From a virus, in the IMG/VR virus record IMGVR_UViG_3300021960_000260, positions 1 through 34,891 of that record: DNA of 34,891 nucleotides, one strand, 5' to 3'. How positions within the stretch are numbered: the stretch's first letter is position 1; each line of letters begins with the position of its first letter. The position numbers and the translations under genes are program-made. Of this stretch, positions 2,618 through 31,364 are shown piece after piece. The notes under the pieces were generated by a model, which worked only from the letters and a program-made list of their open reading frames with translations, searched no databases and had not been told where the DNA came from.

Positions 2618-3136
2618 TTATCCCAAATAGATTCCACCAAAGTTTACGTCTCTATCTGGATGCATCTCCTCATTAGCAGTGCTAGTATACTCAGGATACA
2701 ATTCGCTATTAAAGTCCATATAATCCATAAAGCGTCTAGTATAAAACTCAGCAGTTTCTAGCGCACTTCTAGTAAGCATATTAATCTCTTCCATAGATGC
2801 AGAAACACTGTTCTCGCTAGTATGCTTATAAACTCCTCCGTTGCTTATTTGAAAGGCTGAGAAGGGCATATATTCTGCTTGCGTAAACCAGATAAGCATT
2901 GGCTTAACATAGGTTTCTAGAAGAAGCTTATAGTTAGCATTTCCCGCATCATCAATAGTATCATTAATAATCAGTTCTTGCATCTTGTTATACAGCTTAC
3001 CTCCTAAATAGTTTTGTATATGCGTATCTTGAGCCACCTCAACAAACTGAACGATCTTGTCAGGATCAACAGTTCCTCCAATAATGGACTTCTGCTTGAT
3101 GTCTTTTATAGTTACAAATAATGCTTTCTGTGCCAT
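2618..3136 (-). CDS. Putative head-tail connector (DUF6712-like)
   Basis: 172 residues, mostly helical, with no catalytic motif. It lies two bases after the portal gene, where phages usually place the head-completion/adaptor protein (gp6/gp15 type) that binds under the portal ring. Length and helical content fit that class. The sequence resembles proteins found beside portals in Bacteroidota phages, which I associate with DUF6712. Function is inferred from position and composition; a neck or tail-completion protein is the alternative. Confidence 0.6.
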   Translation of the reverse strand: MAQKALFVTIKDIKQKSIIGGTVDPDKIVQFVEVAQDTHIQNYLGGKLYNKMQELIINDTIDDAGNANYKLLLETYVKPMLIWFTQAEYMPFSAFQISNGGVYKHTSENSVSASMEEINMLTRSALETAEFYTRRFMDYMDFNSELYPEYTSTANEEMHPDRDVNFGGIYLG

Positions 3137-3138
3137 AA

Positions 3139-4896: not shown

Positions 4897-4897
4897 A

Positions 4898-5350
4898 TTA
4901 TAAAACTATGTAAGTATCCTCGCCGTCATCGTACTTTTTGTAAACGCCAGGATAGCTGTAAACTTTCTTCTTGTCCGTATCGCTAGTAACAAAGATAGTA
5001 TCTCTGAATATTAGCAAGGTGTCATTCTTTATCTCTATTCTATATCTAGAACTCTCTTTAAGTTCAGACGTAGAAAGTATGGTTATGTTTAAATAATTCT
5101 CATTAGATGATAATGCAAAACGCCAACCTTCTGTAGCGGTGCTTTCATCAAACTCCCAGTCAAAGTTAGTATCTTCCCAATCGTATTTAACTAAATCCCA
5201 TTGTAGATCAGCTACAGGCAAGTAAGACTGCGTTATGTTGGTCTCCTCGTCTGTTATATATATAAGGCAATCCAATATATCTGCTGCACTGTAACTTGAA
5301 GGTACTACAGAAAAAGTTTGCTCTGTTGTTATCGGCTTTAATCGTATCAC
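4898..5350 (-). CDS. Hypothetical virion protein
   Basis: 150 residues, strand-rich and acidic, with many aromatic residues (LQWDLVKYDWEDTNFDWEF). It ends one base before the portal start region, so the two are probably co-translated. The content suggests a small β-sandwich structural protein. I recognise no family. Position between the tube-like gene and the portal makes a neck or tail role likely. Confidence 0.6.
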   Translation of the reverse strand: MIRLKPITTEQTFSVVPSSYSAADILDCLIYITDEETNITQSYLPVADLQWDLVKYDWEDTNFDWEFDESTATEGWRFALSSNENYLNITILSTSELKESSRYRIEIKNDTLLIFRDTIFVTSDTDKKKVYSYPGVYKKYDDGEDTYIVL

Positions 5351-5394
5351 AATAGGATAACCAAACCCTATTAGTTTTGTTTTTGTTTGAGCAT

Positions 5395-5420
5395 AAAAAA
5401 AGCGGCCTTACGGGGCCGCT
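5395..5420 (-). terminator. Rho-independent terminator after 171-aa gene
   Basis: Perfect 7-bp stem AGCGGCC/GGCCGCT with a 6-nt loop (5401-5420). On the minus strand it is followed by a T run (7 T, counting the last stem base). It lies ~30 bases after the stop at 5447. Confidence 0.88.
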
Positions 5421-5446
5421 CTTTAAATTCAGGTCTAATATAATTT

Positions 5447-5962
5447 CTATGCAGTAATTACAGTAGCCTGTGTAGTGAAATCTCCTCCAGTGATTGAGTT
5501 AGCAGGAGTTCTTTCCATACCTGAGAATGTAAGAGTGTATCCAGAAAGATCACCCATAGCAGCACCAGTTACAATAGTACCACCAGTTACATCGGCTCCG
5601 TGCTCTCTACCAACGTAGATAAAGTTTCCGTTGTAGTCCTCTACCACAATGTGAGGACGGCCGAATGCTAGCAATTTAATTGCTTGATTGTCCGCTGCGC
5701 TTAATTTTGGTAGGGTAAGTTCTAGCACCTGCTCAAAAGCAGTTGTTCCATTCTCTCTAGAAGTCTGGATATTTTGCGTTAAAGAAGAGTTGCCTTTAAG
5801 TTCATACTGGTAGAATGTTTCTCCAGAGAACTCAGTAGAAGGAATAGAATCGTCTGCGCCTGGTGTTACTGAAATACCGTAATTAGCGATGTAAACGTTC
5901 TTAAGACCACCAACTGAATCCTTACAAGGTAAAGCTCTTGCTGTTGAAATGTCACAAGCCAT
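5447..5962 (-). CDS. Putative major tail (tube) protein
   Basis: 171 residues, β-rich, no catalytic motif. It begins MACDISTARALPCKDSVGGL, an N-terminus I associate with abundant virion proteins of Bacteroidota phages. The C-terminal part (GYTLTFSGMERTPANSITGG) resembles the strand-and-tail ending of tail-tube subunits. The gene has its own upstream and downstream terminators, like the capsid gene before it, which fits a highly expressed structural protein. Alternatives are a head decoration protein or stopper. Confidence 0.55.
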   Translation of the reverse strand: MACDISTARALPCKDSVGGLKNVYIANYGISVTPGADDSIPSTEFSGETFYQYELKGNSSLTQNIQTSRENGTTAFEQVLELTLPKLSAADNQAIKLLAFGRPHIVVEDYNGNFIYVGREHGADVTGGTIVTGAAMGDLSGYTLTFSGMERTPANSITGGDFTTQATVITA

Positions 5963-5977
5963 AGTTATTTTTTTATT

Positions 5978-6013
5978 AAAAAAGGGCAGGTAGGCTCAAT
6001 GGCTTACCTACCC
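5978..6013 (-). terminator. Terminator after the major capsid gene
   Basis: Twelve-position stem (5984-5995 with 6002-6013) with one mismatch and one G-T pair and a short loop. On the minus strand it is followed by six T. It lies directly after the capsid stop codon at 6037. Confidence 0.85.
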
Positions 6014-6036
6014 CTTTTTGTTATACAATTATTTTA

Positions 6037-6981
6037 TTAAGCTAAAGTAAGAAGAACTAGATCAGATCCAATTCCGTACTGCACTCCAGAAGTAAATCTC
6101 ATAATAACGCGAACGTTTTGAGATCCGTCTAGATCAGCCATATCAATAACTTTAACTTCGTTGTGGTCAGAAAGAAGACCGGTACCAAAGTACAAGTTAG
6201 AAGCCTCACCAGCAACGATGTGGTCAGCAGGCATACCTGGAGCGTGTTGGATTTTTACTCCGTCAAAAGAAAGAGCATTTCCGTTGTTATACCAAAGTCC
6301 ACCTTTGCTATCAACACCCGCAGCACCAAGACCTGAAGCACCAAATCCACCTAAAGAGCGGATATATGCTTTGTAGGCAATAGTAGGAACGTAGATAGTA
6401 AGATCCTCACGACCGTAAACAGTAGAAGGAACTGCATCAAGAACGTTCTCTAAAAGTCCACCAATGTTAGAAGAAGTAAATGAAGTTTCTGAACCATTAG
6501 CAGCGTCATTTACTGTAGCATCAGCAGCCATAAGTACTGTGAAACCGTCAAACTCACCAGCAGTTGCGTTAACACCTGCCCAGATGTTTTGCTCAGTTTT
6601 CTCAGCTACTTTACCAGCAACGTGAGCGATCAAGAAATCAGCAAATTTAGGAGGAAGTTGGTCAAAAGCACCGATTCCCATTTGTACAGCCTCCCAGTCA
6701 GAACGGAAGTCTTTCTTACAAAGCTCAACGTTTACTTGGAATTCTTCTGGTTGAAGGATACGCTCTGTTAAAGTAACAGCTCCTGTGTCAGTAAAGTCGC
6801 AAGTAGCGTTAGCGATAAGTCCTGAAGTATCAACTTTCTTGATTACCTCTTTGAACTTTACGTTTGGTTTAATGCTAATAGCATTTTCGTTCAGGGTTTT
6901 ACCTGAAAGTAACGCTGCTGAGATATACTGTCCCGCAAATTCACCAGCGTAAGTAGTAGTAATTGATGTAGTAGTTGCCAT
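6037..6981 (-). CDS. Major capsid protein
   Basis: 314 residues, within the HK97-fold size range. The sequence reads as a capsid protein: an N-terminal arm (MATTTSITTTYAGEFAGQYI), an E-loop-like segment with VTLTERILQPEEFQVNVELC, a spine-helix region (PPKFADFLIAHVAGKVAEKTEQNIWAG), and a C-terminal strand GVQYGIGSDLVLLTLA. It follows the scaffold-like gene by 13 bases and is followed by its own terminator, matching high late expression. No separate maturation region is seen, in keeping with the separate scaffold and protease genes upstream. Confidence 0.9.
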   Translation of the reverse strand: MATTTSITTTYAGEFAGQYISAALLSGKTLNENAISIKPNVKFKEVIKKVDTSGLIANATCDFTDTGAVTLTERILQPEEFQVNVELCKKDFRSDWEAVQMGIGAFDQLPPKFADFLIAHVAGKVAEKTEQNIWAGVNATAGEFDGFTVLMAADATVNDAANGSETSFTSSNIGGLLENVLDAVPSTVYGREDLTIYVPTIAYKAYIRSLGGFGASGLGAAGVDSKGGLWYNNGNALSFDGVKIQHAPGMPADHIVAGEASNLYFGTGLLSDHNEVKVIDMADLDGSQNVRVIMRFTSGVQYGIGSDLVLLTLA

Positions 6982-6994
6982 TTTTATTAATTAA

Positions 6995-7444
6995 TTACTT
7001 GTTAAACATTTTCTCATACACAACACTCATTGTGTTGCGAGGTTTTGCCTGAGCAAAGAAGTTTAGCTTTGCAGTCTCTTCTACTTCAGGTGAATGAGTG
7101 ATAGGCTCGGCGGCAGGCTCCTGAGAAGACAACTCCTCTTTAGCTAGCTCTTCGGTAGGAACTTCTACTTCCATTTCCTCAGAACCCATTTTCTCAATGA
7201 TTGCTTCGTACATAGCTTTCATTTCTGCAATAGCAGCTTCAAGCTCTTGTTTTGTAGCATACTTCATTTCTTCTTCTGCTACATCCTCTGCAACATCTTC
7301 AGGTGCCATTTCATCTTCTGGCATATCCTCAAGCATAACAGGGTCGTTTACTTCTACCTCTTCTACAGAAAGCTCCACTTGTGGCTCTTCTTCAGAAGAA
7401 AGCAGGACAGACTTTAATTTGTCTACGATTTCACTTGCTTTCAT
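6995..7444 (-). CDS. Putative scaffold protein
   Basis: 149 residues, strongly acidic, with long Glu/Asp-rich stretches and a coiled-coil core (residues ~60-90, ATKQELEAAIAEMKAMYEAI). The C-terminus is short and basic (NTMSVVYEKMFNK), as in scaffolds whose last residues bind the coat. It lies immediately upstream of the capsid gene and downstream of the protease region, the classic scaffold place. Assignment rests on composition and position, not on a recognised motif. Confidence 0.7.
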   Translation of the reverse strand: MKASEIVDKLKSVLLSSEEEPQVELSVEEVEVNDPVMLEDMPEDEMAPEDVAEDVAEEEMKYATKQELEAAIAEMKAMYEAIIEKMGSEEMEVEVPTEELAKEELSSQEPAAEPITHSPEVEETAKLNFFAQAKPRNTMSVVYEKMFNK

Positions 7445-7496
7445 AAATACTTAAATTATATTAGGTTAACTATTGATTACTTTGATTGTTGTATTT

Positions 7497-7643
7497 TCAG
7501 ACTCTACCGACTCCCTGATTGATCATATTGCCCTTACAGCATCTTCTGCTATACAGGCTTCCTTTCTGGCATAAACAGGCTCTTCTGTTTTCTCTGGGGC
7601 TAGTTCTGCTAGGATTATACTTGCCCCTATCTCTCCTATGCAT
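7497..7643 (-). CDS. Small Cys-rich protein, 48 aa
   Basis: ATG at 7643 overlaps the stop codon of the 209-aa gene (ATGCATAG arrangement); stop TGA at 7497. The product is basic with the motif RRACLCQKGSLYSRRCC followed by INQGVG. I recognise a C-x-C ... CC ... QGIG pattern in short proteins encoded near capsid genes of Bacteroidota phages. The four cysteines may bind a metal. Function unknown. Confidence 0.72.
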   Translation of the reverse strand: MHRRDRGKYNPSRTSPRENRRACLCQKGSLYSRRCCKGNMINQGVGRV

Positions 7644-8265
7644 AAGACTGTACTTTTTGAATAAAGAATATAATATCCCAAACTAGCGCATCACCACCCT
7701 TGGCGGTTATGTTCCATTGTGAACCGTTAACAGCAAAGCTAGAATCGGCGTAATATTGGAACACCTGATGATAGTCGTGAGGTACATCATTTCCTTTAGG
7801 GAAAGTAATCGTATCTCGTATTCTATCATACGGAGTCCCGTTACCGCCTTCAAAGTGTATTTCCAAGTAAGTCTGATTAGCGTTTGGTGCTTGATACTTA
7901 AATACTAGCGTCATTACATAAGTATCGTTTTCTGCATCTGCTAGCACCTTTTTGGTTGTAGGATTGTAGTAGTCTACACCAGTATAACTTCTGTATACGC
8001 TAGCGCCATTATTAGGCAACACAACTTCTGCGTCTTGTAGCAAAGGGAATTTAGAAGCTGAAGTCCATTCTCCGTCATCGTATCTAGCCCATCCTGTTCC
8101 TGATCCAACACCAGCTTGAGGATACAGCTTAACCCACTCGCCATTCCATACAGTCCATACGCCTGCGGCAGTGGTGACATAAGCGCCTTCTTCAATTTGA
8201 TAATATAGACGTTCTTCTTCTGTGTTAACGTCTGACTGAACCTTGTATGAAGTATTTTTAATCAT
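7636..8265 (-). CDS. Putative head fibre/decoration protein
   Basis: 209 residues. Residues ~25-70 (YYQIEEGAYVTTAAGVWTVWNGEWVKLYPQ is the start of this part) look like a Trp-rich carbohydrate- or attachment-type module. The rest, from GWARYDDGEWTSASKF to DALVWDIIFFIQKVQ, resembles a jelly-roll domain that I know from virion proteins of Bacteroidota phages. It lies between the protease and the scaffold, and its start overlaps the preceding 45-aa gene by four bases (ATGA). Exact place in the virion is inferred. Confidence 0.6.
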   Translation of the reverse strand: MIKNTSYKVQSDVNTEEERLYYQIEEGAYVTTAAGVWTVWNGEWVKLYPQAGVGSGTGWARYDDGEWTSASKFPLLQDAEVVLPNNGASVYRSYTGVDYYNPTTKKVLADAENDTYVMTLVFKYQAPNANQTYLEIHFEGGNGTPYDRIRDTITFPKGNDVPHDYHQVFQYYADSSFAVNGSQWNITAKGGDALVWDIIFFIQKVQSYA

Positions 8266-8399
8266 CTGCCTTGTCCTCTATATGGTTTGCTATAATTCTT
8301 AGATGTCTTGCTTTTAGACTGTTTAGTTTTAGAATGAACCCCTTTGCGATTAACCTTTGATTTAGGTTGAAATACGACTATATTCTGTTTCTTAGCCAT
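8262..8399 (-). CDS. Small basic protein, 45 aa (KGVHSKTK family)
   Basis: ATG at 8399 lies inside the end of the protease gene (8-base overlap); stop TGA at 8262 overlaps the next start. The product is very basic and ends in KGVHSKTKQSKSKTSKNY then RGQGR. This Lys/Ser-rich motif recurs in short proteins of Bacteroidota phages in the same place. Both ends are coupled to neighbours, which supports translation. It might bind nucleic acid or scaffold; the role is unknown. Confidence 0.72.
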   Translation of the reverse strand: MAKKQNIVVFQPKSKVNRKGVHSKTKQSKSKTSKNYSKPYRGQGR

Positions 8400-9345
8400 C
8401 TAATTCATCAAGTCCTTTAAGTTTAGACTCTACCCAGTTCTTCATTGATTTGCCTCCCCACAATAGGTAGCTAATCGTACCGCAAGCCTCTGGCTTTGCT
8501 GGGTCGTAGTATGCTTCGGCGCGACTTAGGTAGCTGTAAATTCTCTTCAGCGTTGGTACTGTGAATTTCTCTTTCCGTACTAACTGTTGAGCTCTTACTT
8601 TTCCGACCTGTGTAGCGCATTTATTACCTAGTTCTTTATTGCGTTCAATACCTAATTTAGCGTTGTTAGAAGCACTTTCTGGGTACCCGCCATATGATTC
8701 TAGCTCTACCTCTTGAGAAAGCGCTGAGAGAGCCTCTAAAAGAGCATATTCCGCTTGTAGTTCCTCATAGCGCTCATCACATACCTGACTAGAAGCAGAA
8801 ACTTCCTCTTCCACTTGCTCTTTAGGTCTGTCAGAGCTATCGCTAAAGTATCCCTCAATACTAAAACCCTTAACCTTTCCAGTTTTGACAAATTCTTCCC
8901 AGATCTCATCGTTATTTACTTTTACAGACACCATCCAGGTGCCTTTTGGCATACTTAGGTCGTATAGGGCAGATTTGTCCTTCTTTTCGTCTTCTATGAT
9001 CCAAGATTCGACCACAGACATACCTTTCAGGCTGTATTCGTGCTCTAGCGTTGAATTATTCTGGTTTCCTCTACTCAAGAACAGCTGAGAGGCCTTTCTA
9101 ACGGTATCTTCACTAAAAAAGATGTAGTATTCGGCTCCTAGCTCGTTTCTGCGGTATATCTTCTTATTAGGAATAAGCGCAGGGCCCATTAGAATGCGTT
9201 TTTCAGCATTTACCTCAGCCATTTCTATCTTATGAGCCTTCAGGGCAACAAAATCTGCCTCAATAGCAGGCTCTTCTACGATTGAGATAGCTTCTACTCC
9301 TGAGAATTCGCTATCTTCTTCTATAAACAACTCGTAAACTTCCAT
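8392..9345 (-). CDS. Prohead protease (XkdF-like, S78-type)
   Basis: 317 residues. Residues ~50-170 match the XkdF-like phage serine protease fold: RILMGPALIPNKKIYR, then the His of LEHEYSL (H102) and the Ser of VKGFSIEGYF (S162) as probable catalytic residues. It would cleave scaffold and capsid during head maturation. After an acidic linker, residues ~218-310 form a second domain (YPESASNNAKLGIERNKELG ... YSYLSRAEAYY ... ISYLLWGGKSMKNW) often fused to phage proteases or found in head proteins. It opens the head block right after the tape measure. Confidence 0.8.
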   Translation of the reverse strand: MEVYELFIEEDSEFSGVEAISIVEEPAIEADFVALKAHKIEMAEVNAEKRILMGPALIPNKKIYRRNELGAEYYIFFSEDTVRKASQLFLSRGNQNNSTLEHEYSLKGMSVVESWIIEDEKKDKSALYDLSMPKGTWMVSVKVNNDEIWEEFVKTGKVKGFSIEGYFSDSSDRPKEQVEEEVSASSQVCDERYEELQAEYALLEALSALSQEVELESYGGYPESASNNAKLGIERNKELGNKCATQVGKVRAQQLVRKEKFTVPTLKRIYSYLSRAEAYYDPAKPEACGTISYLLWGGKSMKNWVESKLKGLDELDG

Positions 9346-9375: not shown

Positions 9376-11436
9376 TTATATTGACGCTTCAGCTATTTTA
9401 TTGCGCTCTAGAGACTGAGCAGTAGTTACTTCTCCTGCCACAACATAAGCCTTAATAGGCTGACCTGTTTGACCAGAGATTAGCTGTGCTAATTGGCTTT
9501 GGCCGCTTGCCCCAACTATATTAAAGGCTGGCCCTTGAGCTGCTGGAGCTCCACCCCCGCCCTGCGATGTTAAATTAGGGCTAGGCAGTCCTTGTTCTGT
9601 ATATTTTAGTCTACTAATTGCAGCAACCTGAGCCAATCCAAATGCTGTAGCCACCGCCGCAGCTTTAAAACCTCTAGCCGGAGAAGTTGGGTCAGGTATG
9701 GGAACAAATTGAGACAAATAAGCTTTTACGGCAGAAGAAGCTGTATCTGACAAGGCCATAATTATTTTAAGCGCCTTCTCTCTCTGGAATTGCTTCTTGG
9801 CTATTTTATTTTGTTTTTCTACTAAATCAGCTTCGTTTCTAGATATTTGCTGATTAATCTTATCTCTTTCTTCTGCCGAGAGATTCTCATTTGCTAGCCG
9901 TCTTTTAAGCTGATCATTAAGAGCTGTAGTTTTATTCTTCTCTATAGCGATTTCCCTGTCAGCTTGTGCAGATAGCACATCGTTTAAAGCTCCAGCTACA
10001 TTTTTAACAAGCGCAGCTCTTTCACCAATCTTTTCAGCCTGTTCTTTTAAGCCAAGAAGCTTGGCCATATCTAGCTGTCCTTTTTTAAAGCTTAGATTAG
10101 CTTCAAGATCTTTTTGCATCTGCTCCGGATCAAGAGCCTCTGAAAGACCTTTTATGGCGAGCTCCTTAACGTTGCCCCAGACTCTGGTATTCTCAACCGT
10201 CTTCTCTATTATGGTTCCAACGTTTTGCTCTAGACCCATCATTTCGAAAACATTCTCAGCCTTTATAGGTTGACCACTTCTAAGGCGATCCATAATTATT
10301 TCTAGAGCCTCTATTTGACTCTGAAGATCTTGAATCTCTTCTGTGGTTAAGGCTGTTTCCTCTTGCTGTTCCCTTAGCTTTCCAATAAGGGTTTCATAAA
10401 ATTTTAGCGTGCCAACAATAACTTTCTGCTCCTCCTCTTTCTTCTTCTTGCTTTCCTTGTCCTTTTCTAATAGTCCAGATATTGTCTTATCAATTTTTTG
10501 ATTTTCTATATCTATTTCCCTTTGAACATCTAGTCGCTCTTTGTTAATCACTAAAGATCGCTCTTCTTGTTGAGCTATAGCTTGATCTATGTATAGGATT
10601 TCTTGTTTAAAGCCAGCTTCCATTTCAGCAGCCTGCGCAACAGTTAACTGAGATAGTCTAAACCTTCTTTCTTCTTCTTGCTCCGCAAGCCTCTCAGCTC
10701 TTTTTATCTCTAGCTTTTCAATTCTGTCCTTTATTTTTGCGTTCTCTTCAGCATCTCTTGTTTCAAGTCTCTTTATCTCTCTTTCTTTTTGAAGTATTGA
10801 ATTTCTTTTATCAAGAAGATCGTTTTGCATCTCTTGAGTTATCAACCCTCTCTTAGTGGCCGCAGCTAAATCTGCATTTACCTTTCCATATCTTTCAAGA
10901 ATATCTGCACGCTCTTCGTCAGTAAGGTTCTGCGCTTCTAACTCACGACGAAGCAATTCTAGCTGTGTTCTCTGATCTATAAATGACTGAGTCATTTGAT
11001 CTACGGAATCAGCAGCGTCTTTGTTGTTTCTAGAGAAAACTTCAAGCAAAGCAATCATACCCTGAAAAGCAACCAGAATACCAACTGGGCCGAGGATCTG
11101 TGCTCCCAATAGATTTATGACATTTTTCGTTCTAGACAGGCCATTATTCATATTACCTGCCTGAACAACAAGTAGCGAAAACATAGATCCTAGCTGCGAC
11201 AAGTTGTTCGCGACCCCCTGAATACCATACGGCATATCTGATATTAATCTACCAAATTCTGTAACAGTCGATCCTGCAATACCAGCAGCGCTATTCATAT
11301 CGGCAAATCCTTTTTGCGCAACCTTTGCGCTAGTACCGATGTCTCTAAGCTTGCTGTTTATTTGATCAACGTTAGTTATAACGCCCTTAGAGTCTATCTT
11401 AAACTCTAATATTATAGTTTCCTTACTTATGGCCAT
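9376..11436 (-). CDS. Tail tape measure protein
   Basis: 686 residues. It sets tail length and is ejected on infection. The N-terminal ~100 residues are followed by a hydrophobic segment (LLGAQILGPVGILVAFQGMIALL, split by me at its core), then long charged coiled coil with many Arg/Glu/Lys/Gln (residues ~140-340), a second coiled region (~490-560, NKTTALNDQLKRRLANENLS) and an Ala-rich C-terminal hydrophobic part (FKAAAVATAFGLAQVAAISRL region). Length predicts a tail of roughly 100 nm at ~1.5 Å per residue. The start overlaps a 49-aa ORF. Confidence 0.85.
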   Translation of the reverse strand: MAISKETIILEFKIDSKGVITNVDQINSKLRDIGTSAKVAQKGFADMNSAAGIAGSTVTEFGRLISDMPYGIQGVANNLSQLGSMFSLLVVQAGNMNNGLSRTKNVINLLGAQILGPVGILVAFQGMIALLEVFSRNNKDAADSVDQMTQSFIDQRTQLELLRRELEAQNLTDEERADILERYGKVNADLAAATKRGLITQEMQNDLLDKRNSILQKEREIKRLETRDAEENAKIKDRIEKLEIKRAERLAEQEEERRFRLSQLTVAQAAEMEAGFKQEILYIDQAIAQQEERSLVINKERLDVQREIDIENQKIDKTISGLLEKDKESKKKKEEEQKVIVGTLKFYETLIGKLREQQEETALTTEEIQDLQSQIEALEIIMDRLRSGQPIKAENVFEMMGLEQNVGTIIEKTVENTRVWGNVKELAIKGLSEALDPEQMQKDLEANLSFKKGQLDMAKLLGLKEQAEKIGERAALVKNVAGALNDVLSAQADREIAIEKNKTTALNDQLKRRLANENLSAEERDKINQQISRNEADLVEKQNKIAKKQFQREKALKIIMALSDTASSAVKAYLSQFVPIPDPTSPARGFKAAAVATAFGLAQVAAISRLKYTEQGLPSPNLTSQGGGGAPAAQGPAFNIVGASGQSQLAQLISGQTGQPIKAYVVAGEVTTAQSLERNKIAEASI

Positions 11437-11582: not shown

Positions 11583-14500
11583 TTAACAAGTTCCGCTTGC
11601 TGTGAATTGTGTTCCATCCCAGTACTTAAAGTCTGATCCGTCAGAATACCATCCAGCATTAGCATAAGTGTATCCATTAACATCTCCAAATAGATTGTTT
11701 GAAGCAAATATGCTAGATTCGTCAGCGTATGTAGTACCTGTGAATCCTGAGTTGTATCTGCTGCAAGCAGTAGCTCCATCAACAAGTGATCTACCTATTG
11801 TAAGGGCATAAGTTCCCGCAACGGTGTCTACATTCAAGGCAACATCATTGCTTCCTTGTGCTACTGTGATTGAGTAGCTAGTTGCGCCTGAAGGAGAAGT
11901 GAAGTCTCCTGGACAAGATGAACTGTTATTGCCTAACAACTCATTTGTTGGAGATGTTACGATTGTGACTGTAGCGCCTGGAGTAATTCCTGTAATAGTT
12001 CCTACTAAAGCGCAGCTGCCAGAAGTAATCGTAGCGGTAGCAATAGTAAAGTAAGAGCCACCTGTGCTGTAAGAGAATGTTCTACTAGCATCAACCAAGT
12101 TTGCTCTTGCATATACATTAAGCGTAGCTACTGGAGGTGCAGATTGACTGATTACTATTGAACCACTAGAAGCAGGATTTGGCGCAGTAGGATTCGTCTC
12201 AGTTGCGGTAATTACCGATCTAAGCGTTTCTGTACCGTTACCATTGTACGCTCCAAAATTAACCGTAAAGTTGGTGTCGTTAGTACCGCTTGTTGAACTG
12301 GTAATTGTAAGGTCAATAGGATTGTATCCTGAAAGCGCAGCGTCAGACAATGACCAAGAAACTGTTGCTGGGTCTACATCTAGCGCATAAACAACTCCTG
12401 TTTCTCCAGCAGAATTAATATCCTGATCTCCTGTTATGGTTAATGTGCTAGGAGGAGGTGGTGGTGTAACGGGACAACCAGTATCTTGAGGTACTGCCGC
12501 TTGCAAATCAACTATTGGATAACCACCTGAATCATTCTGTGTAGAGCCACTATAAGTATAATAAGTAGGATCAGGTGACGTAGAATAGTCTATATATGTT
12601 TGATCGATTACACTTGGAGGTGTGGTCAATCTATCAATGACTGTAGTTCCTCCATCACAAGCGTAGAATATGTAATAGATTGGTAGTACTGTTAAGGTAT
12701 CCGAGTCTGATCCCGATTTACCTTCTCTTATAGCCAATAGGCTTAGCGAGCCAGTTCCAGGCTCTGTCCAAGTTACATCAACACTTGCAGTTCCTTGTCC
12801 GCTAGTAATGACACCGCCTGATACTCCCCAAGAGTAAGTAATCGTTCCTGAAGTGTTTCCTCCAATTACAGATCCATAACTTCTTGATTGCTGCTCTAGT
12901 ACGTTGCTAAAGTCTCCCGTAATGGTGGCTGTGGTTTCAAGAGCATTTACAGTGATGGCGTCTTGATCCGCCGCTTCTATTCCCTCTCTAATCGCATCAA
13001 CTCGTACAGATCCGGCACCAGGAGTAGACCAAGTGACCGTAATGCTATCTGTTCCTTGACCATTAAACGATCCTCCAACAACTGTCCAAGTGTAAGAAAC
13101 AGCTCCTGTAGCGGTTCCTGACAGTGTGGTTCCATAAGTAACTACATCTGTTTCGGTTACTGGGCTAGATACGTTGGTAATATCTATACCAAATGTCGCT
13201 GAAGGCGCAGCAGAGTTAACCAAAACAGGAACTTGATCAAAGTTCAAGTATTCTGTTCCATTTCTAAATGCGTCAACTCTAATGTAGCCGTTTGTTGTTA
13301 CGGTATTCCAAGTTACTCCTACAGTATTTGTACCCTGACCAGACGTAATAATACCTCCACTTATTCCCCAAGTATAAGTTACATTTGTGGTATCACCAGT
13401 AACAGTTAAACCGTAAGTGTCTGTGTCGCCTTCTGTATAAGGACTATTTACACCTGTAATATCTACAGTAAATGCAGCCTCTACATTCTGAATAGTTACT
13501 TGTAGTGTGTTAAAAACGGGAGTTAAATTTCCTACAGTTACAGTACATTTAACCGATCCTGGCGAGTTAGCAGATACAGCGTTCCAAGTTATAGCCACAT
13601 TGCTGCTAGTATTACCCCCGTTTATCGTACCATTAGTTACTTCCCAGAAATATGTAGGAGTTCCTTGTGCCGTACCTCCTACAGTAGCAAGGTAAGTATA
13701 TTGAGTGCTTTCTAGTGGGCTAGTTTGCCCCGACACATTTACCGTTAAAGTTCCTGGCTGTTCTCCTCCTCCATTGCCATTTTCTGGTATCTCCAAGAAG
13801 CCCTCTACAATATTAAGCAGCTCTAGGTCGCTGTTTCCTGTAGCAAGGTCAGTAGTTATACTATTAATATAGTATTCCCTGTCCGATATTAGTATTGTAT
13901 CGGCAAGAGAGTAATTTAATAGAAAAGATACAGGAAGCTGCGCTTTAAACCTAGAAACCCTTCGCTGTCTATTAAAGAGCGCTGCTATATAGTTAAAGTA
14001 GTAGTTATTGAATAATGTTCCAGGAAACGACAGGTCTCTAGTGTATTCGTTCTTCTCAAACTTAAAGTTTATGTTCTGAGTTCCTGTAGCAGAATTAAAA
14101 TAAAGGCTATTAGAAGGCATTACAATAGGCGCAGTAATCTCTATTGTAACGGCAAAGCTTCCTTCGGCATTTGCCTCAGTAACAAAAGCTATCCCGTTTT
14201 GAGCTTGTAGAATAGGATAAAATACCAATGGCTTACCTATATAAGGATCTTCGTTGTCGTCTACAGCATAACCCCACTGTACCTCTACAGTATCGTTTGC
14301 AGAAATGTCTAGTAGATTCTCGTATTTAAAATGTGCAAAAGGAACGACAACGTCAAACTTCTCCCCCTCCTTTACTCCTTGCTGCTCACCATTGTAGCTT
14401 TCTTTCCCCCACTCGCTACCTACTAGATTATTGTGGTTTGCCGCAAGAAAACTTTCTGTATCATCATAGGCGAACGATATTTCTCTATAAGGTACAGTAG

Positions 14501-15815
14501 AGTCTACGCTGTGAGTGTCCGTATGTACGAAGGAGGTTATATTGACTAGATCTCCCTCATCGTAATACTCATCTAACGTTTTAACCGTTATAAAATTATC
14601 GTTATTTACCTCAGCGACTAAATTAAACATCTTAAATAGTCCTGATAGAAAGTCTACTACCTTTATCTCAGGTATCTGATCGGTAATAACAAATTCAAAA
14701 CTAGCAGGCGCAGAAAACGAGCCTGTAGAGTACTGATCTTGATTTACGCCAGCAACTATAGTCCATATGGCATCTGCAAAGGTGGTAGCATTAGAATAAC
14801 TAATAGTAACCTGATAGCTAGCTCCGCTTTGTGCCGCATATAGCAAGTCAACTTCATAGTTGGAGCTTACAATGCCTGACTGAGAAAATATTTCAACATT
14901 GTTTCTAGTTATACTTATGCTGTAGGGGGCTGTTATGGCCCCGCTAACATCTAAATCAAATCTAAAATTTGTAATAGCACTGGCATCCTGTAAGAATAAT
15001 GTATTGCTGGTAACAGAAGAATTAGTACCCTGCGTTGTTGTCCAACCAGTAATTTGCTTCGTATATGACTGATCTTGGTCTATAGAAGTAACTGGCCCCT
15101 TGTTTCTGTGGAGCCACATAAATAGATTGTAGTAAGGCAAGTTGGTCGTAGAAAAGAAGTCGTCACTAAAGGTGAATCCGTATCTAGTTGCTATTGCTTC
15201 TACAATCTTGTGTACTCTAATGGCGTACTTTAATTCTTTCCAATAGACTCCGTGTTGGTTGCTGCCTTTATGCAGGTTCCCAGTATTTAGAATATCTTCA
15301 TTAGAGTCGTAATAAAGTCTTTGGCTGTGCGTAATAAGTGGCGCAACTATATGCGCTGTTGAAGGATCCGCTTTTAGAGCCGTCTCTATATTTGTAGCAT
15401 CGTAAGTTTGATTAAATGCATCTAATGTAGATAATGCTCCAAGATTCTCCTCACCCATAAGGTCTTTAAGGACTACTGTATTTCCGTAGAATGTAATCTT
15501 GTAGGCATACGCCTTGCCCGAGCGCATCTCTACGCCGTCCAGGCGCACTCTACCGAACCTGAAAGGGACATCATTGATGTCTATTTTGGCGGGCGCTTTA
15601 GTGCGAGAATCGAAGCCGTCAAATATGTGGAAGTTATAATAATGCTCAAATATCTTGTTATTATTCTTAGACGCAGGAACGGTAAAGCTTTTAGAGAAGT
15701 CTGTAAATATTTTAGATACGTCCTGTATATTCTTTATGGTCTGCGTAAGCGAGATATTCTCGTCATCAAACAAGTCTACTCTTTGGTCATTTATATATAA
15801 CTGTACTTTCCTCAT
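11583..15815 (-). CDS. Large tail-tip/baseplate hub protein with Ig-like repeats
   Basis: 1410 residues. The N-terminal ~650 residues (MRKVQLYINDQRVDLFDDEN onward, with FSKSFTVPASKNNNKIFEHY) form the conserved tail-tip/hub part typical of Bacteroidota phages. Residues ~690-1040 hold about four Ig/PKD-like repeats of ~85 residues, each with a TYTW/SYTW or SYSW core and SGGxxTSGQGTxxVxVTW. Then comes a Tyr-rich module with paired Cys (YYIFYACDGGTT), more β domains, and a C-terminal module ending WDGTQFTASGTC. Such repeats usually lengthen the tip and bind cell surfaces. It lies between the Dit-like gene and the tape measure. Confidence 0.75.
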   Translation of the reverse strand: MRKVQLYINDQRVDLFDDENISLTQTIKNIQDVSKIFTDFSKSFTVPASKNNNKIFEHYYNFHIFDGFDSRTKAPAKIDINDVPFRFGRVRLDGVEMRSGKAYAYKITFYGNTVVLKDLMGEENLGALSTLDAFNQTYDATNIETALKADPSTAHIVAPLITHSQRLYYDSNEDILNTGNLHKGSNQHGVYWKELKYAIRVHKIVEAIATRYGFTFSDDFFSTTNLPYYNLFMWLHRNKGPVTSIDQDQSYTKQITGWTTTQGTNSSVTSNTLFLQDASAITNFRFDLDVSGAITAPYSISITRNNVEIFSQSGIVSSNYEVDLLYAAQSGASYQVTISYSNATTFADAIWTIVAGVNQDQYSTGSFSAPASFEFVITDQIPEIKVVDFLSGLFKMFNLVAEVNNDNFITVKTLDEYYDEGDLVNITSFVHTDTHSVDSTVPYREISFAYDDTESFLAANHNNLVGSEWGKESYNGEQQGVKEGEKFDVVVPFAHFKYENLLDISANDTVEVQWGYAVDDNEDPYIGKPLVFYPILQAQNGIAFVTEANAEGSFAVTIEITAPIVMPSNSLYFNSATGTQNINFKFEKNEYTRDLSFPGTLFNNYYFNYIAALFNRQRRVSRFKAQLPVSFLLNYSLADTILISDREYYINSITTDLATGNSDLELLNIVEGFLEIPENGNGGGEQPGTLTVNVSGQTSPLESTQYTYLATVGGTAQGTPTYFWEVTNGTINGGNTSSNVAITWNAVSANSPGSVKCTVTVGNLTPVFNTLQVTIQNVEAAFTVDITGVNSPYTEGDTDTYGLTVTGDTTNVTYTWGISGGIITSGQGTNTVGVTWNTVTTNGYIRVDAFRNGTEYLNFDQVPVLVNSAAPSATFGIDITNVSSPVTETDVVTYGTTLSGTATGAVSYTWTVVGGSFNGQGTDSITVTWSTPGAGSVRVDAIREGIEAADQDAITVNALETTATITGDFSNVLEQQSRSYGSVIGGNTSGTITYSWGVSGGVITSGQGTASVDVTWTEPGTGSLSLLAIREGKSGSDSDTLTVLPIYYIFYACDGGTTVIDRLTTPPSVIDQTYIDYSTSPDPTYYTYSGSTQNDSGGYPIVDLQAAVPQDTGCPVTPPPPPSTLTITGDQDINSAGETGVVYALDVDPATVSWSLSDAALSGYNPIDLTITSSTSGTNDTNFTVNFGAYNGNGTETLRSVITATETNPTAPNPASSGSIVISQSAPPVATLNVYARANLVDASRTFSYSTGGSYFTIATATITSGSCALVGTITGITPGATVTIVTSPTNELLGNNSSSCPGDFTSPSGATSYSITVAQGSNDVALNVDTVAGTYALTIGRSLVDGATACSRYNSGFTGTTYADESSIFASNNLFGDVNGYTYANAGWYSDGSDFKYWDGTQFTASGTC

Positions 15816-16738
15816 TACCTGACTGTAGAAATCACATTATTAGATTGCTCAAACTCCACTGTATAGCTAACTAGTTTGTCATTTAATGAATTCTTGTATT
15901 GTACCGAAGTCGTTAGCGGCCTAACGGGAACTACTGATCCGCTAAGAACTAGCCACACCTGCTCAGAAAGCATCAGCTCCTGTACGTATGCGTTATCGGC
16001 TTCGCTAATGAAGCCAGTGTTTAACGAGTAGTTTATCTTACCGTTCTTATTAAAGTCTACTATCTGATGACGTCTTGTGTCATATGTACCGTCACCTGCA
16101 ACAATGTTAGAGATATAATTTTCGCCCGTCACACTAAAAGAGTCTGTTTTCTTAGTGAAGAAGTAAAACTCTTGATGCACACCAAACTTATTGATGAATA
16201 CGCATTTGATAGGCGTATACTTGTCGCACTGCTGTCGTTTAATGGTAATACCTGACGCACTAGTCACTGAAGCTCCATAAGTCTCAATAGCAAGCGTACC
16301 GCCTGCCCCCATCACATAGAAAGAGCCTGTGGTGTTTTGCGGAGCATATATAGAAGTTGACGATAGAAGCGGCCCAGCGGGCAGCACAAAGTTATTACCC
16401 TGATTAAAGTATCTGTAACCGTCATAGGCGGTGTCTGAAGCAGGAGTCTGTGTAGTACCGATCTGAGTTCCTGTTGCGTTAACGGTATCCCAAAAGGACA
16501 CAGATAGCGATATAGTGGCTGTGCCTACCGTAGCTGTACTGAATGACCCGATATAGCTAGGAGTCACGTAGTCCCTTGCTAGTTCAGAGATGTCTATTCG
16601 TACAGATGTTCCTGTATTTTTAACTATCGTATATCTTAGTACCGAATTAATCGTAACCTCAACCTTCGAGGAAACCGCTGTTCCTACTGGATCGGTAAAG
16701 TTTACAAAATATGGACTTCTTACCCCTATATTTGCCAT
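15815..16738 (-). CDS. Putative distal tail protein (Dit-like)
   Basis: 307 residues, almost entirely β structure, no enzymatic motif. It precedes the large tip protein with a one-base overlap (stop/start at 15815), the usual arrangement of a distal tail protein and its hub. The middle part has IKRQQCDKYTPIKCVFINKF followed by GVHQEFYFF, a pattern I associate with tail proteins of Bacteroidota phages. Assignment is from position and fold type. Confidence 0.6.
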   Translation of the reverse strand: MANIGVRSPYFVNFTDPVGTAVSSKVEVTINSVLRYTIVKNTGTSVRIDISELARDYVTPSYIGSFSTATVGTATISLSVSFWDTVNATGTQIGTTQTPASDTAYDGYRYFNQGNNFVLPAGPLLSSTSIYAPQNTTGSFYVMGAGGTLAIETYGASVTSASGITIKRQQCDKYTPIKCVFINKFGVHQEFYFFTKKTDSFSVTGENYISNIVAGDGTYDTRRHQIVDFNKNGKINYSLNTGFISEADNAYVQELMLSEQVWLVLSGSVVPVRPLTTSVQYKNSLNDKLVSYTVEFEQSNNVISTVR

Positions 16739-16745
16739 TTTATTG

Positions 16746-17216
16746 CTATTTCTTTATTTCGTTCTTTAGTTCTCTAGCTTGTCTCATTAAATCGTTTTTA
16801 ACGATAATCAAGGCTTCCTCTTGGAATTTGCCCCGTATCTCTGTTTTAACTATGAAATCTAGCAAGTCGCTACCTCCATAATTAAATCTCTTTATTGTTC
16901 CTCTGTCTGCTATAGTCTTCTGTACCGCATAAGCCACTCTCTTCTGTTCCTTATCACCTTCTACAGCCATTCTTTTCTGAACCCATCGAAGTATATTTTG
17001 CATAGGCGGCTTATTGCCTGGCGCTCTACCTTTATTGATCTGAGCGAAGTAATCTTTACCCAGTATGTTCAAGCCGTCAGGCTTTACTACATACTTGAGG
17101 CTCTTTGCTGCGTTTCCGCTAGCATTGAGATCTAGACTATTCATCTTCTCAATCATACGATCGATTATAATCGAACCGTACTTATCAAAAAGATTCTTTA
17201 ATTTCTCTTCTAACAT
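16746..17216 (-). CDS. Putative neck/tail completion protein (HK97 gp10-like)
   Basis: 156 residues, helix at both ends. The central motif INKGRAPGNKPPMQNILRWV resembles the xxGRxPGxxPPxxxIxxW signature of head-tail joining proteins of the HK97 gp10 family. It overlaps the preceding gene by seven bases. Role inferred: closing the head-tail interface or assembling the neck. Confidence 0.65.
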   Translation of the reverse strand: MLEEKLKNLFDKYGSIIIDRMIEKMNSLDLNASGNAAKSLKYVVKPDGLNILGKDYFAQINKGRAPGNKPPMQNILRWVQKRMAVEGDKEQKRVAYAVQKTIADRGTIKRFNYGGSDLLDFIVKTEIRGKFQEEALIIVKNDLMRQARELKNEIKK

Positions 17217-17674
17217 ACAGAATAATCACTAGGAATATCTATACTTATATCTACAGACCATCCCGCTAGCTGATTCTCGAATCTATCCTTGAACGGCTCA
17301 CATATTGGCTCACCTGCTAGCTGATACTTATCCCTATATAAATCCCCCCTTTTAAGGTCTTGTATTAAAGAATTGGCTATTTGTAGCTGTGTATTGTAAA
17401 TATCAACTAAATCAGTATCGTCTTGCCTAAGACCAAAGTCGTCATTGTTAAACTCCTTTGTATAGTCAACAATGTCCATAAATAACATACTTAACGTAAC
17501 GCGCATAGCGTGATCGGTTACCTGTACATTGCCTAGCAAGAAGTGCGCTAGTGGGAAAATAGTGGTCTTGTTAAGATCGACATCTGTGATGTCTCCAAAA
17601 GTCACGGTATTAACTAATGGATGTGCTAAAAGGAATTCTTTTACCTGTTTAACAATGTCGTATATGTTCGTCAT
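17210..17674 (-). CDS. Putative tail terminator protein
   Basis: 154 residues, mixed α/β. Begins MTNIYDIVKQVKEFLLAHPL and has a strand-rich centre and the end GWSVDISIDIPSDYSVC, compatible with the tail-terminator/tail-completion fold that caps the tube. Its ATG overlaps the stop codon of the frameshifted chaperone frame (ATGA at 17671-17674). No catalytic residues. Function inferred from position next to gp10-like and chaperone genes. Confidence 0.5.
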   Translation of the reverse strand: MTNIYDIVKQVKEFLLAHPLVNTVTFGDITDVDLNKTTIFPLAHFLLGNVQVTDHAMRVTLSMLFMDIVDYTKEFNNDDFGLRQDDTDLVDIYNTQLQIANSLIQDLKRGDLYRDKYQLAGEPICEPFKDRFENQLAGWSVDISIDIPSDYSVC

Positions 17675-17934
17675 TTATAAGCGTCTTTTATTCTTTTGTT
17701 TTCTAACTCTACTTTCTCTTTTTCAAATGTTAACCAGGTTAAGCATTTATGTACATTTAGTTCAGTGACTTTGTCGAACTTGGAAACATCTGATCCAGCC
17801 AGCGCATAAATAGACTGGTACCATCCCCACTTTTGTCCGAAGACTTGTTCCCTGCTAACAATTCCGATTCCTTGATCCCCTGACTCAGTAAATAATCCAT
17901 CATATGTTCTGACAACTTCATCCCTAAACGATAA
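17671..17934 (-). CDS. Tail assembly chaperone, -1 frameshift extension (T part)
   Basis: Open reading frame in the -1 frame relative to the 237-aa gene. It has no ATG and is closed by TAG (near 17963) just upstream of the slippery run, so it can be reached only by frameshifting. Read from the T run it gives 87 residues ending in TGA at 17671. The segment FGQKWGWYQSIYALAGSDVS followed by a Leu/Glu/Lys-rich helix (KCLTWLTFEKEKVELENK) is a sequence type I recognise in Bacteroidota phage tail modules. By analogy with lambda gpGT, the fusion (179 + 87 = 266 residues) would chaperone the tape measure during tail assembly. Confidence 0.8.
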   Translation of the reverse strand, partial: LSFRDEVVRTYDGLFTESGDQGIGIVSREQVFGQKWGWYQSIYALAGSDVSKFDKVTELNVHKCLTWLTFEKEKVELENKRIKDAYK

Positions 17935-18470
17935 AAAAAAACCAGAGCTCCTATTGCAACACTAGCAGGCATATGCTTCATATACTCCTCGTACTTGCTA
18001 GCACTCTCATACTCCTCTATCTCGTAGAAGTCTTTAACCTTCGCCGTAATAGGTCTGAACAATACAGCCATCGCCTTATGCATAGTCTTCCAGTCAGATA
18101 TGTAGTTCTCTATATCCACATACTCACCGAAGCTCATATTGTTGAGGTCTGGGTGCATACCAAACTCAACCTCTACTCCGTTACTGCCTCTCAGCCAAAA
18201 GCGTTTAATAAGAGGTGTTTCCTCAGTCAAACAGTTGGCAATCTTGTTAAGCACCACATCAAAGTGTGATAATGGTAGCTTATAGCTTTCCTTCAGCTCC
18301 AACCCACAAAAGATCTCTAGAGCCTTAAGGTTGATAAACATCTCAGAGTCCTCCCCATCCTTATCAATCTTATCCAGAATCTGGAAGTAGCGTTGATATT
18401 GATCTAGCGTAATATCTGCTAGCTGATTGGGAACTTCAATCTTTACCTGTATTGTTTTTTCCATATACAT
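17757..18470 (-). CDS. Tail assembly chaperone, zero-frame product (G part)
   Basis: 237 residues. It begins MYMEKTIQ with a second possible ATG two codons in. It is mainly helical and has no enzyme motif. At codon 178-179 the frame crosses nine consecutive T (GTT TTT TTT TAT), where a -1 shift gives a second conserved C-terminus. The zero-frame end contains KSSDKSGDGTSLFMRW, also plausible protein, so the last 58 codons are probably coding in both frames. It is the first gene of the tail operon, following ~800 bp of non-coding DNA. In other siphoviruses this gene sits directly before the tape measure; here four tail genes and a 49-aa ORF lie between. Confidence 0.75.
   Translation of the reverse strand: MYMEKTIQVKIEVPNQLADITLDQYQRYFQILDKIDKDGEDSEMFINLKALEIFCGLELKESYKLPLSHFDVVLNKIANCLTEETPLIKRFWLRGSNGVEVEFGMHPDLNNMSFGEYVDIENYISDWKTMHKAMAVLFRPITAKVKDFYEIEEYESASKYEEYMKHMPASVAIGALVFFYRLGMKLSEHMMDYLLSQGIKESELLAGNKSSDKSGDGTSLFMRWLDQMFPSSTKSLN
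17931..17942 (-). promoter_or_regulatory. Slippery site for -1 ribosomal frameshift
   Basis: Minus-strand GTTTTTTTTTAT (T run 17933-17941). Zero-frame codons are GTT-TTT-TTT-TAT, so T-TTT-TTT fits the X-XXY-YYZ heptamer. After slippage the next codon is TTA in the -1 frame, which stays open for 88 codons to 17671. Confidence 0.75.
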
Positions 18471-18480
18471 AGAGATAACC

Positions 18481-19193
18481 TCATAACTTATTTTTGTACC
18501 ACCTTCGGTGGAAGTTCGCCTTGCTGCCTACCACTATAAGTAAATCTTATGGCAAGATAAGGAATATCTATGAACAGATTTAAACCTTTTTAGTTATCTT
18601 TATGAAACAGGAGAGGATCTGTCTAAACCTCCAAACTTCTATAGAGATATAGTTGGTACAGATAAAATAAGTCTGCCTGAGAACTGCGTTGGTAATCTTC
18701 TATTGCTCTTGTCGCGCCCGCCAACATACAGCTCAGCTAGCATTTCATTTATTTTTTTAGAGCAATTAGGGGGCGCATCTTCATAAGCTATCTAGATGCT
18801 TCGCCCCTGGAGGGCTCGCATCAGAATGCTTTGAATTCGTTGAAATGAGATACTAACACCAGCCCAAGTCCGTTTTACGTTGAATTCATCGAAACGGTAT
18901 ACTAACGCCCACCCAAACGCGTTTTACGTTGTTCTTGATATTCAGCGAGCTCCAGCGAGCTGCTGAGGTGATCGGATGAGGTGTAGGGGTAGCGTGTTTA
19001 AGAGGGCAGAGTTTGAAGGAGATCTTTACACCTGCCTTCCATACCCATTATCAACCTCAATCACTTACCAGAAAACTAGGCACAACCTCAACGCCTAAAA
19101 TAAGGCTATTTAAAGGCCGTTTAAGAGCCGTTTGCTAGGGCTCTGGTACTAGGTACTAGCTAGGGTATAGATACGAGCGTACAGGGCACAAAA
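18481..19193. other. Non-coding region with tandem and inverted repeats
   Basis: No ORF of note on either strand and no tRNA that I can fold. It holds a short hairpin CCACC-TTC-GGTGG (18502-18514), an inverted pair ATTGCTCT ... AGAGCAAT (about 18702-18768) next to a second one (GGGGCG-CATCT with AGATG-CTT-CGCCCC, about 18772-18808), a 49-bp-period tandem repeat (18831-18929), a doubled AGCGAGCT (18944-18962), and a 6-bp stem AGAGCC/GGCTCT near 19123-19143. It probably includes the 5' leader and promoter of the tail operon, but I could not place a convincing promoter. Confidence 0.6.
18831..18929. repeat. Imperfect tandem repeat, two copies, 49-bp period
   Basis: Copies 18831-18880 and 18880-18929 match at 39 of 50 positions. 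Conserved blocks are TTGAATTC, GAAA, ATACTAAC and GTTTTACGT; the two share one base. Could be protein-binding sites upstream of the tail operon. Confidence 0.85.
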
Positions 19194-19212
19194 AAGCCCC
19201 ATCTGGTAGGGC
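19190..19212 (-). terminator. Possible second terminator
   Basis: Weak stem GCCC/GGGC (19196-19199 with 19209-19212), followed on the minus strand by six T. It lies just beyond the stronger terminator at 19229-19251 and may back it up. Confidence 0.45.
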
Positions 19213-19228
19213 GTATCGTATAGGCAAA

Positions 19229-19251
19229 GAAAAAGGCCCCATTAGGGGCCT
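19229..19251 (-). terminator. Terminator of the accessory operon
   Basis: Perfect 7-bp stem AGGCCCC/GGGGCCT with an ATTA loop (19234-19251), followed on the minus strand by a T run. It lies 22 bases after the stop at 19273. Confidence 0.9.
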
Positions 19252-19272
19252 CTCTGGTGAGCTGTGCGAGCT

Positions 19273-21379: not shown

Positions 21380-21490
21380 TTACCAGCAGTAAATTGCTAG
21401 CGCGGAAGTCATTATCACAAAGGTGCATACGCAAACTATTGAAGCGATAACATATCCCATAATCATTAAAGCAAACTTATTATTTCTCAT
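21380..21490 (-). CDS. Small membrane protein, 36 aa
   Basis: ATG at 21490 overlaps the terminase stop (ATGA); stop TAA at 21380. The product MRNNKFALMIMGYVIASIVC and onward is one long hydrophobic helix with a basic N-terminus. Translational coupling to the large terminase supports expression. Role unknown. Confidence 0.6.
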   Translation of the reverse strand: MRNNKFALMIMGYVIASIVCVCTFVIMTSALAIYCW

Positions 21491-22701
21491 CGTATTACAT
21501 ATCTTCCTAGTGACTTGCCTTGCACCAGGTATTGAAGTCCATAACGGCAAGCATCTAAATAATGGTCGTAAGCGCTGACTGGCTTAGTGTTCCTCTCTTG
21601 CCATACATAGTTGTTAAGCTCTCTGATAACCCCATTAGAGTTCTTATCTACTATAATCTCGTAGTCTTGCATAAGGGCTATCCCTGATAGGATAGATCCC
21701 TGCTTCTTAATGGCTCCTCGTATATTGAGATCCTGAGCCTTCAGCTCTTGGATGAGCCTCGGCTCTGCACTATCACATATAATCAGATCCAATCCGCAGT
21801 ACTGTCTATTCTTCTGTGCGATCTGGCTAGTAGTCATTCCCTTCTGCCCATAGCATTCTCTAACCCACATCTTCTTCTCCTCTGGGTCTACACTGATCTG
21901 CACTAGAGTTGTTGGGTCGGTAGAGAAACCAAAATCCTGTCCGAATACTGTGAGCTCCTTCTGCTGATAATCTCCTACTCTCCAGTTCTTATAGATCGTA
22001 CCTTCTGCCTTGTTAAGCCAACCTCCTAGTATAGCGTGCTGATACTGATCAGGTCTACGCTTCTTCATATCCATTACCTGCTCCAGGAAAGACTCAGATA
22101 GATTATCCTTGTTATCCATATAGGTAGTATGAATGTAAGTAGTGTTGCGTTCAGATCCATTCCATCCTTCTGGTATACCTATATTCTGGAACCATCTCTG
22201 GTAGATCCAATGCTCTTTAGTGGTAGGGTTTAGTATCAGGATACACCTGTTAGGCTTCTCCTGTACTCTGACAGATAAGTCTATCTTGTTAAAGGTGTCC
22301 TCATCTACAAGCTCTTCTGCCTCATCTAGCACAAAGGTCGTAATACCATTTAGAGACTTCAGGGCAGCCGTTTGGTTACCTGATGAGGTTCTGATACCTT
22401 TGAAGATAATAGAGTTCTTAGTGGTCATATTAATGATCTCATCCTTAGTAATCCTAAAGTCCTCTTGCACCCCCATCATCTCAATCTTCTCTACGAACTC
22501 TGGTATGATAGAAGTCTGAGCTGAGGTCATAGTATAACGGCTGAATAGTATTCGGTGTCCCTCTTCATAGGTTAGGTTGAGCAAGAACACTGCTACACTA
22601 AAAGACTTACCAGATCCCCTACCTCCAGTTACTACAAAGTATCTGCTGTCATCCTGGAACAGAGGGATATACTTCTCATTAAGTACTACATTATTCTTCA
22701 T
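21487..22701 (-). CDS. terL: Terminase large subunit
   Basis: 404 residues; ATP-driven packaging motor and nuclease. Walker A GGRGSGKS (26-33), Walker B TTFVLDEAEE (121-130), and coupling region near RCILILNPTTKEHWIY. The C-terminal RNase H-type nuclease has likely acidic metal ligands D256 (GQDFGFS), D310 (IICDSAEP) and D379/D383 (YDHYLD). Resembles the PBSX/SPP1-type (Terminase_3) family. It overlaps the small subunit gene by 11 bases. Full length, intact. Confidence 0.95.
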   Translation of the reverse strand: MKNNVVLNEKYIPLFQDDSRYFVVTGGRGSGKSFSVAVFLLNLTYEEGHRILFSRYTMTSAQTSIIPEFVEKIEMMGVQEDFRITKDEIINMTTKNSIIFKGIRTSSGNQTAALKSLNGITTFVLDEAEELVDEDTFNKIDLSVRVQEKPNRCILILNPTTKEHWIYQRWFQNIGIPEGWNGSERNTTYIHTTYMDNKDNLSESFLEQVMDMKKRRPDQYQHAILGGWLNKAEGTIYKNWRVGDYQQKELTVFGQDFGFSTDPTTLVQISVDPEEKKMWVRECYGQKGMTTSQIAQKNRQYCGLDLIICDSAEPRLIQELKAQDLNIRGAIKKQGSILSGIALMQDYEIIVDKNSNGVIRELNNYVWQERNTKPVSAYDHYLDACRYGLQYLVQGKSLGRYVIR

Positions 22702-31333: not shown

Positions 31334-31364
31334 TTGATTATGTCAAAAAAAAACCGTAACTTTA
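31334..31364 (+). promoter_or_regulatory. Plus-strand promoter-like element
   Basis: TTG (31334-31336), 20-bp spacer, TAACTTTA (31357-31364), a one-base variant of -33/-7. It points towards hairpins and the 3' end of the lysin gene (antisense); no plus-strand gene is seen. Confidence 0.5.

Follow-up and report, generated by a model that had tools for sequence, protein, structure and literature searches.

A conserved nine-T frame junction in a probable tail assembly chaperone of Bacteroidota phages, with two overlapping C-terminal ends

Introduction

A viral DNA of 34,891 nucleotides (IMG/VR record IMGVR_UViG_3300021960_000260; this whole stretch is referred to below as the window) carries a gene for a 237-aa protein, the last 58 codons of which are also read in the -1 frame by an open stretch without a start codon of its own. 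The locus raises the question of whether the two frames are joined into one longer protein, and whether the short and the long product each possess a C-terminal end of their own that is kept by selection. The first-pass annotation, made from the letters alone, had proposed a -1 shift at a run of nine Ts in a tail assembly chaperone. Here, we compared the locus with its relatives and with known systems, and weighed the possible routes from one frame to the other.

Results

Arrangement of the two frames

The junction consists of the following features:

17757..18470, minus strand: G, a zero-frame ORF of 237 aa, probable tail assembly chaperone (homologs in 265 loci; AF2 model; weak 2OB9 match)
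17933..17941, minus strand: T9 slippery run with T_TTT_TTT in phase (263 of 265 loci and 104 of 104 representatives have T9 or T10)
17671..17934, minus strand: T, the -1 frame extension, 87 post-slip codons and a TGA, without its own start codon (conserved in 265 loci)
17757..17933, minus strand: C-terminal part of G in the zero frame (58 codons and the stop codon), also read as T in the -1 frame; position-specific substitution and open-frame simulation

At the run, the zero frame reads V177-F178-F179-Y180 (GTT TTT TTT TAT), so that T_TTT_TTT is in phase, both in the window and in all intact split-frame homologs. The -1 frame is open on the minus strand from 17961 to 17674, bounded by TAG (17964..17962) on its upstream side and by TGA (17673..17671), and in the window it contains no ATG, GTG, or TTG ahead of a conserved FGQKWGWY core. 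A slip after F179 would join 179 and 87 residues into a 266-aa G-T fusion, whereas 58 more codons are read without it, yielding the 237-aa G. These observations bear out the first-pass description of the junction, which had given the nine Ts (17933-17941) read as T-TTT-TTT in the zero frame, a -1 frame open to 17671 without ATG and closed by a stop just upstream of the run, and two products of 266 and 237 aa with 58 codons in two frames. The combination of a zero-frame ORF with an overlapping, start-less -1 ORF, which characterizes the gpG/gpGT type of phage lambda, is thus present.

The TGA of T overlaps the ATG (17674) of the next gene as ATGA, which suggests that translation of T and of this gene may be coupled. 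Approximately 0.26 runs of at least nine Ts are expected in the whole window; on the gene strand, the only other one (31345-31353) lies between genes. Upstream of G, a stretch of approximately 800 bases (18471-19272) is without a clear gene and includes a 49-base direct repeat (18831-18928, 78% alike).

Conservation among relatives

G, T, and profiles served as queries for related loci and yielded 265 of them; one locus set was picked by G motifs distant from the slip site and is therefore unbiased with respect to the run. Both parts were present in all 265 loci, and T lay in the -1 frame in 264 of them. The run was T9 in 243 loci and T10 in 20, with two exceptions of T8 and T7. All 104 representatives had nine or more Ts, and 11 or more were never seen. 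T reached beyond the zero-frame stop in 103 of 103 representatives, and the ATGA overlap with the next gene was found in 68 of 103. The initial recognition of the extension as a sequence type of Bacteroidota phage tail modules is supported as to the Bacteroidota phage origin. Among cultured relatives, the Nonlabens phages P12024S and P12024L (Inhavirus) carry true homologs (gp38-39 and gp40-41, respectively), with T9 and a -1 T right after the terminase; this pair, annotated as two hypothetical proteins, is approximately 28% identical to that of the window and has a zero-frame end of just 27 codons.

Profile comparison (T, E 2.2e-6; G, E 1.8e-4) supports a relationship to more distant prophages of Bacteroidota that have this layout as well. 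Four of them (L412, L415, L418, and L419) have a T7 run with A on both sides, and another (L411) has a T8 run, with T_TTT_TTT in phase in each case. In L410, L420, and gp3 of Elizabethkingia phage TCUEAP1, which are more distant again, G and T apparently form one frame without a shift; the matches are weak profile or BLAST matches, and the homology of these single-frame proteins to G and T is a lead. Together with L410 and L420, a seemingly uninterrupted G+T frame in a distant Bacteroidota phage protein was also noted at L421:2164-2706. An uninterrupted frame in relatives had been named beforehand as evidence against a shift; no such case with an intact site occurs within the family, and these distant proteins are the candidates for it. 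Given such single-frame relatives, the shift does not extend to every member of the wider group, which seems to form a natural series of no shift, T7, T8, and T9.

Selection on both overlapping ends

A comparison of variation in both frames across relatives, which had been suggested at the outset, revealed constraint on both. Differences per T-frame codon position were counted in 448 pairs of moderately related sequences. Inside the overlap, positions 1, 2, and 3 of the T frame showed 0.114, 0.073, and 0.137 differences, compared with 0.074, 0.054, and 0.231 past the zero-frame stop; for G alone, the values were 0.087, 0.047, and 0.284. Along T, the third-position rate rose from 0.141 at codons 51-60 to 0.274 at codons 61-70, where the zero frame ends. 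We also recoded the T frame synonymously and scored the length of the open zero frame: the real zero frame was open for a median of 60 codons, versus 13.6 on average in the recoded simulations, and P was below 0.05 for 96 of the 103 representatives and 0.003 for the window. The lowered third-base change and the long open zero frame together make it very probable that the 58 codons at the end of G encode a genuine, constrained product. Judged from these substitution patterns, both alternative ends appear to be kept by selection while overlapping in one stretch of DNA, and this long overlap is the actual novelty of the locus.

Three simpler accounts of the junction were weighed against these data. 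That the 58-residue end is a by-product left open by chance, with T alone selected, would fit its variable length among relatives (27 to 91 codons, the lower figure in Inhavirus), but T loses almost half of its third-base change precisely within the overlap and regains it past the zero-frame stop, and the open length is far above that of the synonymous simulations; we regard this account as very improbable. Separate translation of T from an internal start is still harder to maintain: some ATG, GTG, or TTG precedes the T core in 27 of 104 representatives, but the other 77, including the window, have no start-like codon there, so that most of the family lacks a stand-alone start for T, and a separate start is disfavoured. 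That the break reflects gene decay, or an indel from sequencing or assembly, scarcely deserves credence. Runs of T8 and T7 do occur in two records of one phage, labelled as plasmids (66-67 kb), which are error-laden and whose homopolymers differ between the records, but the other 263 loci, together with prophages in bacterial assemblies, have T9 or T10 and the same frames, and selection is seen in both frames. Exact DNA scans of IMG/VR with the commonest flank agreed: 13 T7 and two T8 sites were found, neither G nor T was nearby at any of them (0/13 and 0/2, respectively), and both G and T were present at 78 of 79 T9 sites among the matches listed. The indel or pseudogene reading was rejected on the basis of the 265-locus conservation and these scans, and the concern that reads might show 8 or 10 Ts was not upheld, short runs (T7/T8) being confined to the two noisy records. 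These two records, CP045836.1 (L096) and NZ_CP040811.1 (L097), are filed under Lysinibacillus and Escherichia fergusonii, respectively, and appear to contain two copies of one Bacteroidota-type phage of approximately 33 kb, with numerous homopolymer errors.

Gene neighbourhood and probable function

The genes that bear on the position of G-T are listed below:

17210..17674, minus strand: next gene, 154 aa, whose ATG overlaps the T stop (ATGA)
16746..17216, minus strand: 156-aa gene of the same operon
15815..16738, minus strand: 307-aa beta-rich gene of the same operon
11583..15815, minus strand: 1410-aa tail protein, beta-rich and containing PKD-like domains (homologous to P12024L gp46, E 2e-79)
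9376..11436, minus strand: gp686, helical and 686 aa long, the fifth gene downstream of G-T and the probable tape measure (composition, position)
21487..22701, minus strand: large subunit of the terminase, located upstream of G-T like its Inhavirus counterpart (P12024L order)

The order of terminase, G-T, and tail genes is common to the window and the Nonlabens phages P12024S/L. Within the tail module, G-T is found on the 5' side of the gene for the probable tape measure and is not adjacent to it. The composition and position of gp686 make it the probable tape measure; its C-terminus weakly matched P12024L gp50 (E 3e-11), and a BLASTP comparison with the annotated tape measure of Elizabethkingia phage TCUEAP1 gave no match. 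The 1410-aa gene was rejected as a tape measure by composition and homology. Its first 670 residues match P12024L gp46, and its second half, which is long, PKD-like, and rich in Thr, Ser, and Gly, is absent from that protein. The first-pass placement of the chaperone four genes before the tape measure is corrected accordingly: four genes intervene, the tape measure is probably the fifth gene, gp686, and the 1410-aa gene is a tail protein. Elsewhere in the window (2618-9345), the genes for the portal (3139-4896) and the protease (8392-9345) come after the tail genes in the direction of transcription, at a long distance from the terminase (21487-22701).

Searches with G and T against Pfam and PHROGs gave no named family, and none of the Pfam tail-chaperone families passed the cut-off for the G/T family; Phage_TAC_7 was weakly matched by 2 of 74 members (best E 0.023), which by itself is within noise. 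A sequence search of solved structures returned no match. The AlphaFold model of G had a pLDDT of 86.4. Foldseek against the PDB yielded no significant match for G and nothing for T, and with VIA-align the HK97 tail assembly chaperone 2OB9 was the second-best match to the G model (residues 7-82 of G, 67 residues, rmsd 3.4), with a Z of 4.0 that alone is within noise. No description of this G/T family was found in a search of the open-access literature.

A tail chaperone is nevertheless the best reading, because these noise-level matches combine with the lambda-like design and the position between terminase and tail genes, and we consider it likely that the locus encodes two forms of one tail assembly chaperone, G and G-T. 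The identification proposed in the first-pass annotation accordingly gains from the gpG/gpGT-like design, although no family match above the cut-off backs it and 2OB9 remains at noise level. Frameshifts occur in other phage structural genes too, and the frameshifted pair G/G-T might serve differently in the virion or in virion assembly, for example as a scaffold or neck protein. The four genes between G-T and the probable tape measure, and the absence of a strong fold or family match, would suit such a role; the lambda-like layout, the place after the terminase and ahead of the tail genes, and the 2OB9 and Phage_TAC_7 hints speak against it and make it a rather unlikely choice.

Possible mechanisms of the proposed shift

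With a tail assembly chaperone as the working identity, most decoding would stay in the zero frame and give the 237-aa G with its own 58-residue end, while a minority event at the T9 run would move decoding one base back and give the 266-aa G-T, in which an 87-residue end takes the place of the 58 residues. If the pair works like lambda gpG/gpGT, the tape measure would be coated by G, and tail-tube subunits would be recruited by the T end of the fusion. The likeliest route for the shift would be tandem -1 ribosomal slippage on T_TTT_TTT, a mechanism favoured because the distant prophages of the same layout have just T7 or T8 in phase. No downstream RNA structure was seen (mean z of 0.15 versus 0.09 in a control stretch, using shuffles that preserved base composition only), most upstream Shine-Dalgarno-like motifs were not enriched, and an Rfam search around the slip site found nothing at the site.

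Alternatively, RNA polymerase may slip on T9, with T10 (or T7) transcripts giving G-T and T9 transcripts giving G; T8 and T11 transcripts would then give a truncated G, with a stop approximately four codons on. We give this route a substantial but minority chance. A T run of nine or more is indeed found at the frame junction. In many bacterial genomes, selection against slippage is evident at a run length of nine, and both mxiE and Thermus dnaX exploit transcriptional slippage on homopolymer runs (PMC1088944). The strict minimum of nine Ts in the family of the window, with 11 or more never reached in the representatives, exceeds the heptamer that ribosomal slippage requires, and no ribosomal stimulator was found. 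Moreover, three codon phases of the run were seen among relatives, and both lineages with fewer Ts in the upstream codon regain at least nine via the next codon (AGT TTT TTT TTT in the L222/L234 clade, a single event on the tree; GGT TTT TTT TTG in L404). Against this, such compensation amounts to just two independent events, and conserved amino acids partly account for the flanking Ts, most other V/L/I/F columns keeping a second-base T in 92-100% of rows. The amino-acid explanation and the distant same-layout homologs with just T7 or T8 weaken the argument for transcription from run length. The two kinds of slippage could also both act. The fuller proposition, that a large group of Bacteroidota phages makes a chaperone with two functional dual-coded C-termini (approximately 60 and 87 residues) by RNA polymerase slippage at a strictly kept T9 run, is a tentative one that we find less likely than not as a whole.

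Discussion

The lambda-like design suggested at first reading is supported by the start-less -1 extension and the predicted fusion. As in lambda gpG/gpGT, one gene in the tail region would give two products with a common N-terminus, the -1 extension has no start of its own, and the stop of T overlaps the next gene; no sequence similarity between the two pairs was found. The site is GGGAAAG in lambda and T9 here. Lambda G ends approximately five codons after its site, whereas 58 codons, themselves selected, follow here, and no genes separate GT from the tape measure in lambda, in contrast to four here.

The E / E+E' pair of phage P2 also has a T-rich -1 site, T_TTT_TTG (TTTTTTG), without a downstream hairpin (PMC3091744). 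The T-only run had been called unusual, but such a site is not in itself very unusual, given the P2 site and T9/T10 throughout the family. The absence of a downstream hairpin is common to P2 and the present locus, in which Phage_TAC_7 was hinted at in the 2 of 74 members; however, P2 E ends approximately seven codons past the shift, versus 58 here, and E+E' lies directly ahead of the tape measure gene, versus four intervening genes here. The HK97 protein 2OB9 resembles G in a fold match within the noise range and lacks sequence similarity to it. Shigella mxiE and Thermus dnaX likewise have a homopolymer run at the junction, and in mxiE the shifted frame yields the longer product (PMC1088944); they differ in not being phage tail genes, and the homologs here include shorter runs.

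The frameshift arrangement is therefore strongly conserved and of a known kind, and the long, doubly selected overlap is its distinctive feature. A large unannotated family of Bacteroidota phages would thereby join the frameshifted tail chaperones. The short form of such a chaperone can have a selected end of its own, and what distinguishes the two products may be an exchanged domain rather than a mere extension. With lineages having T9, T8, T7, and seemingly no shift, ribosomal and transcriptional slippage become testable within one gene family.
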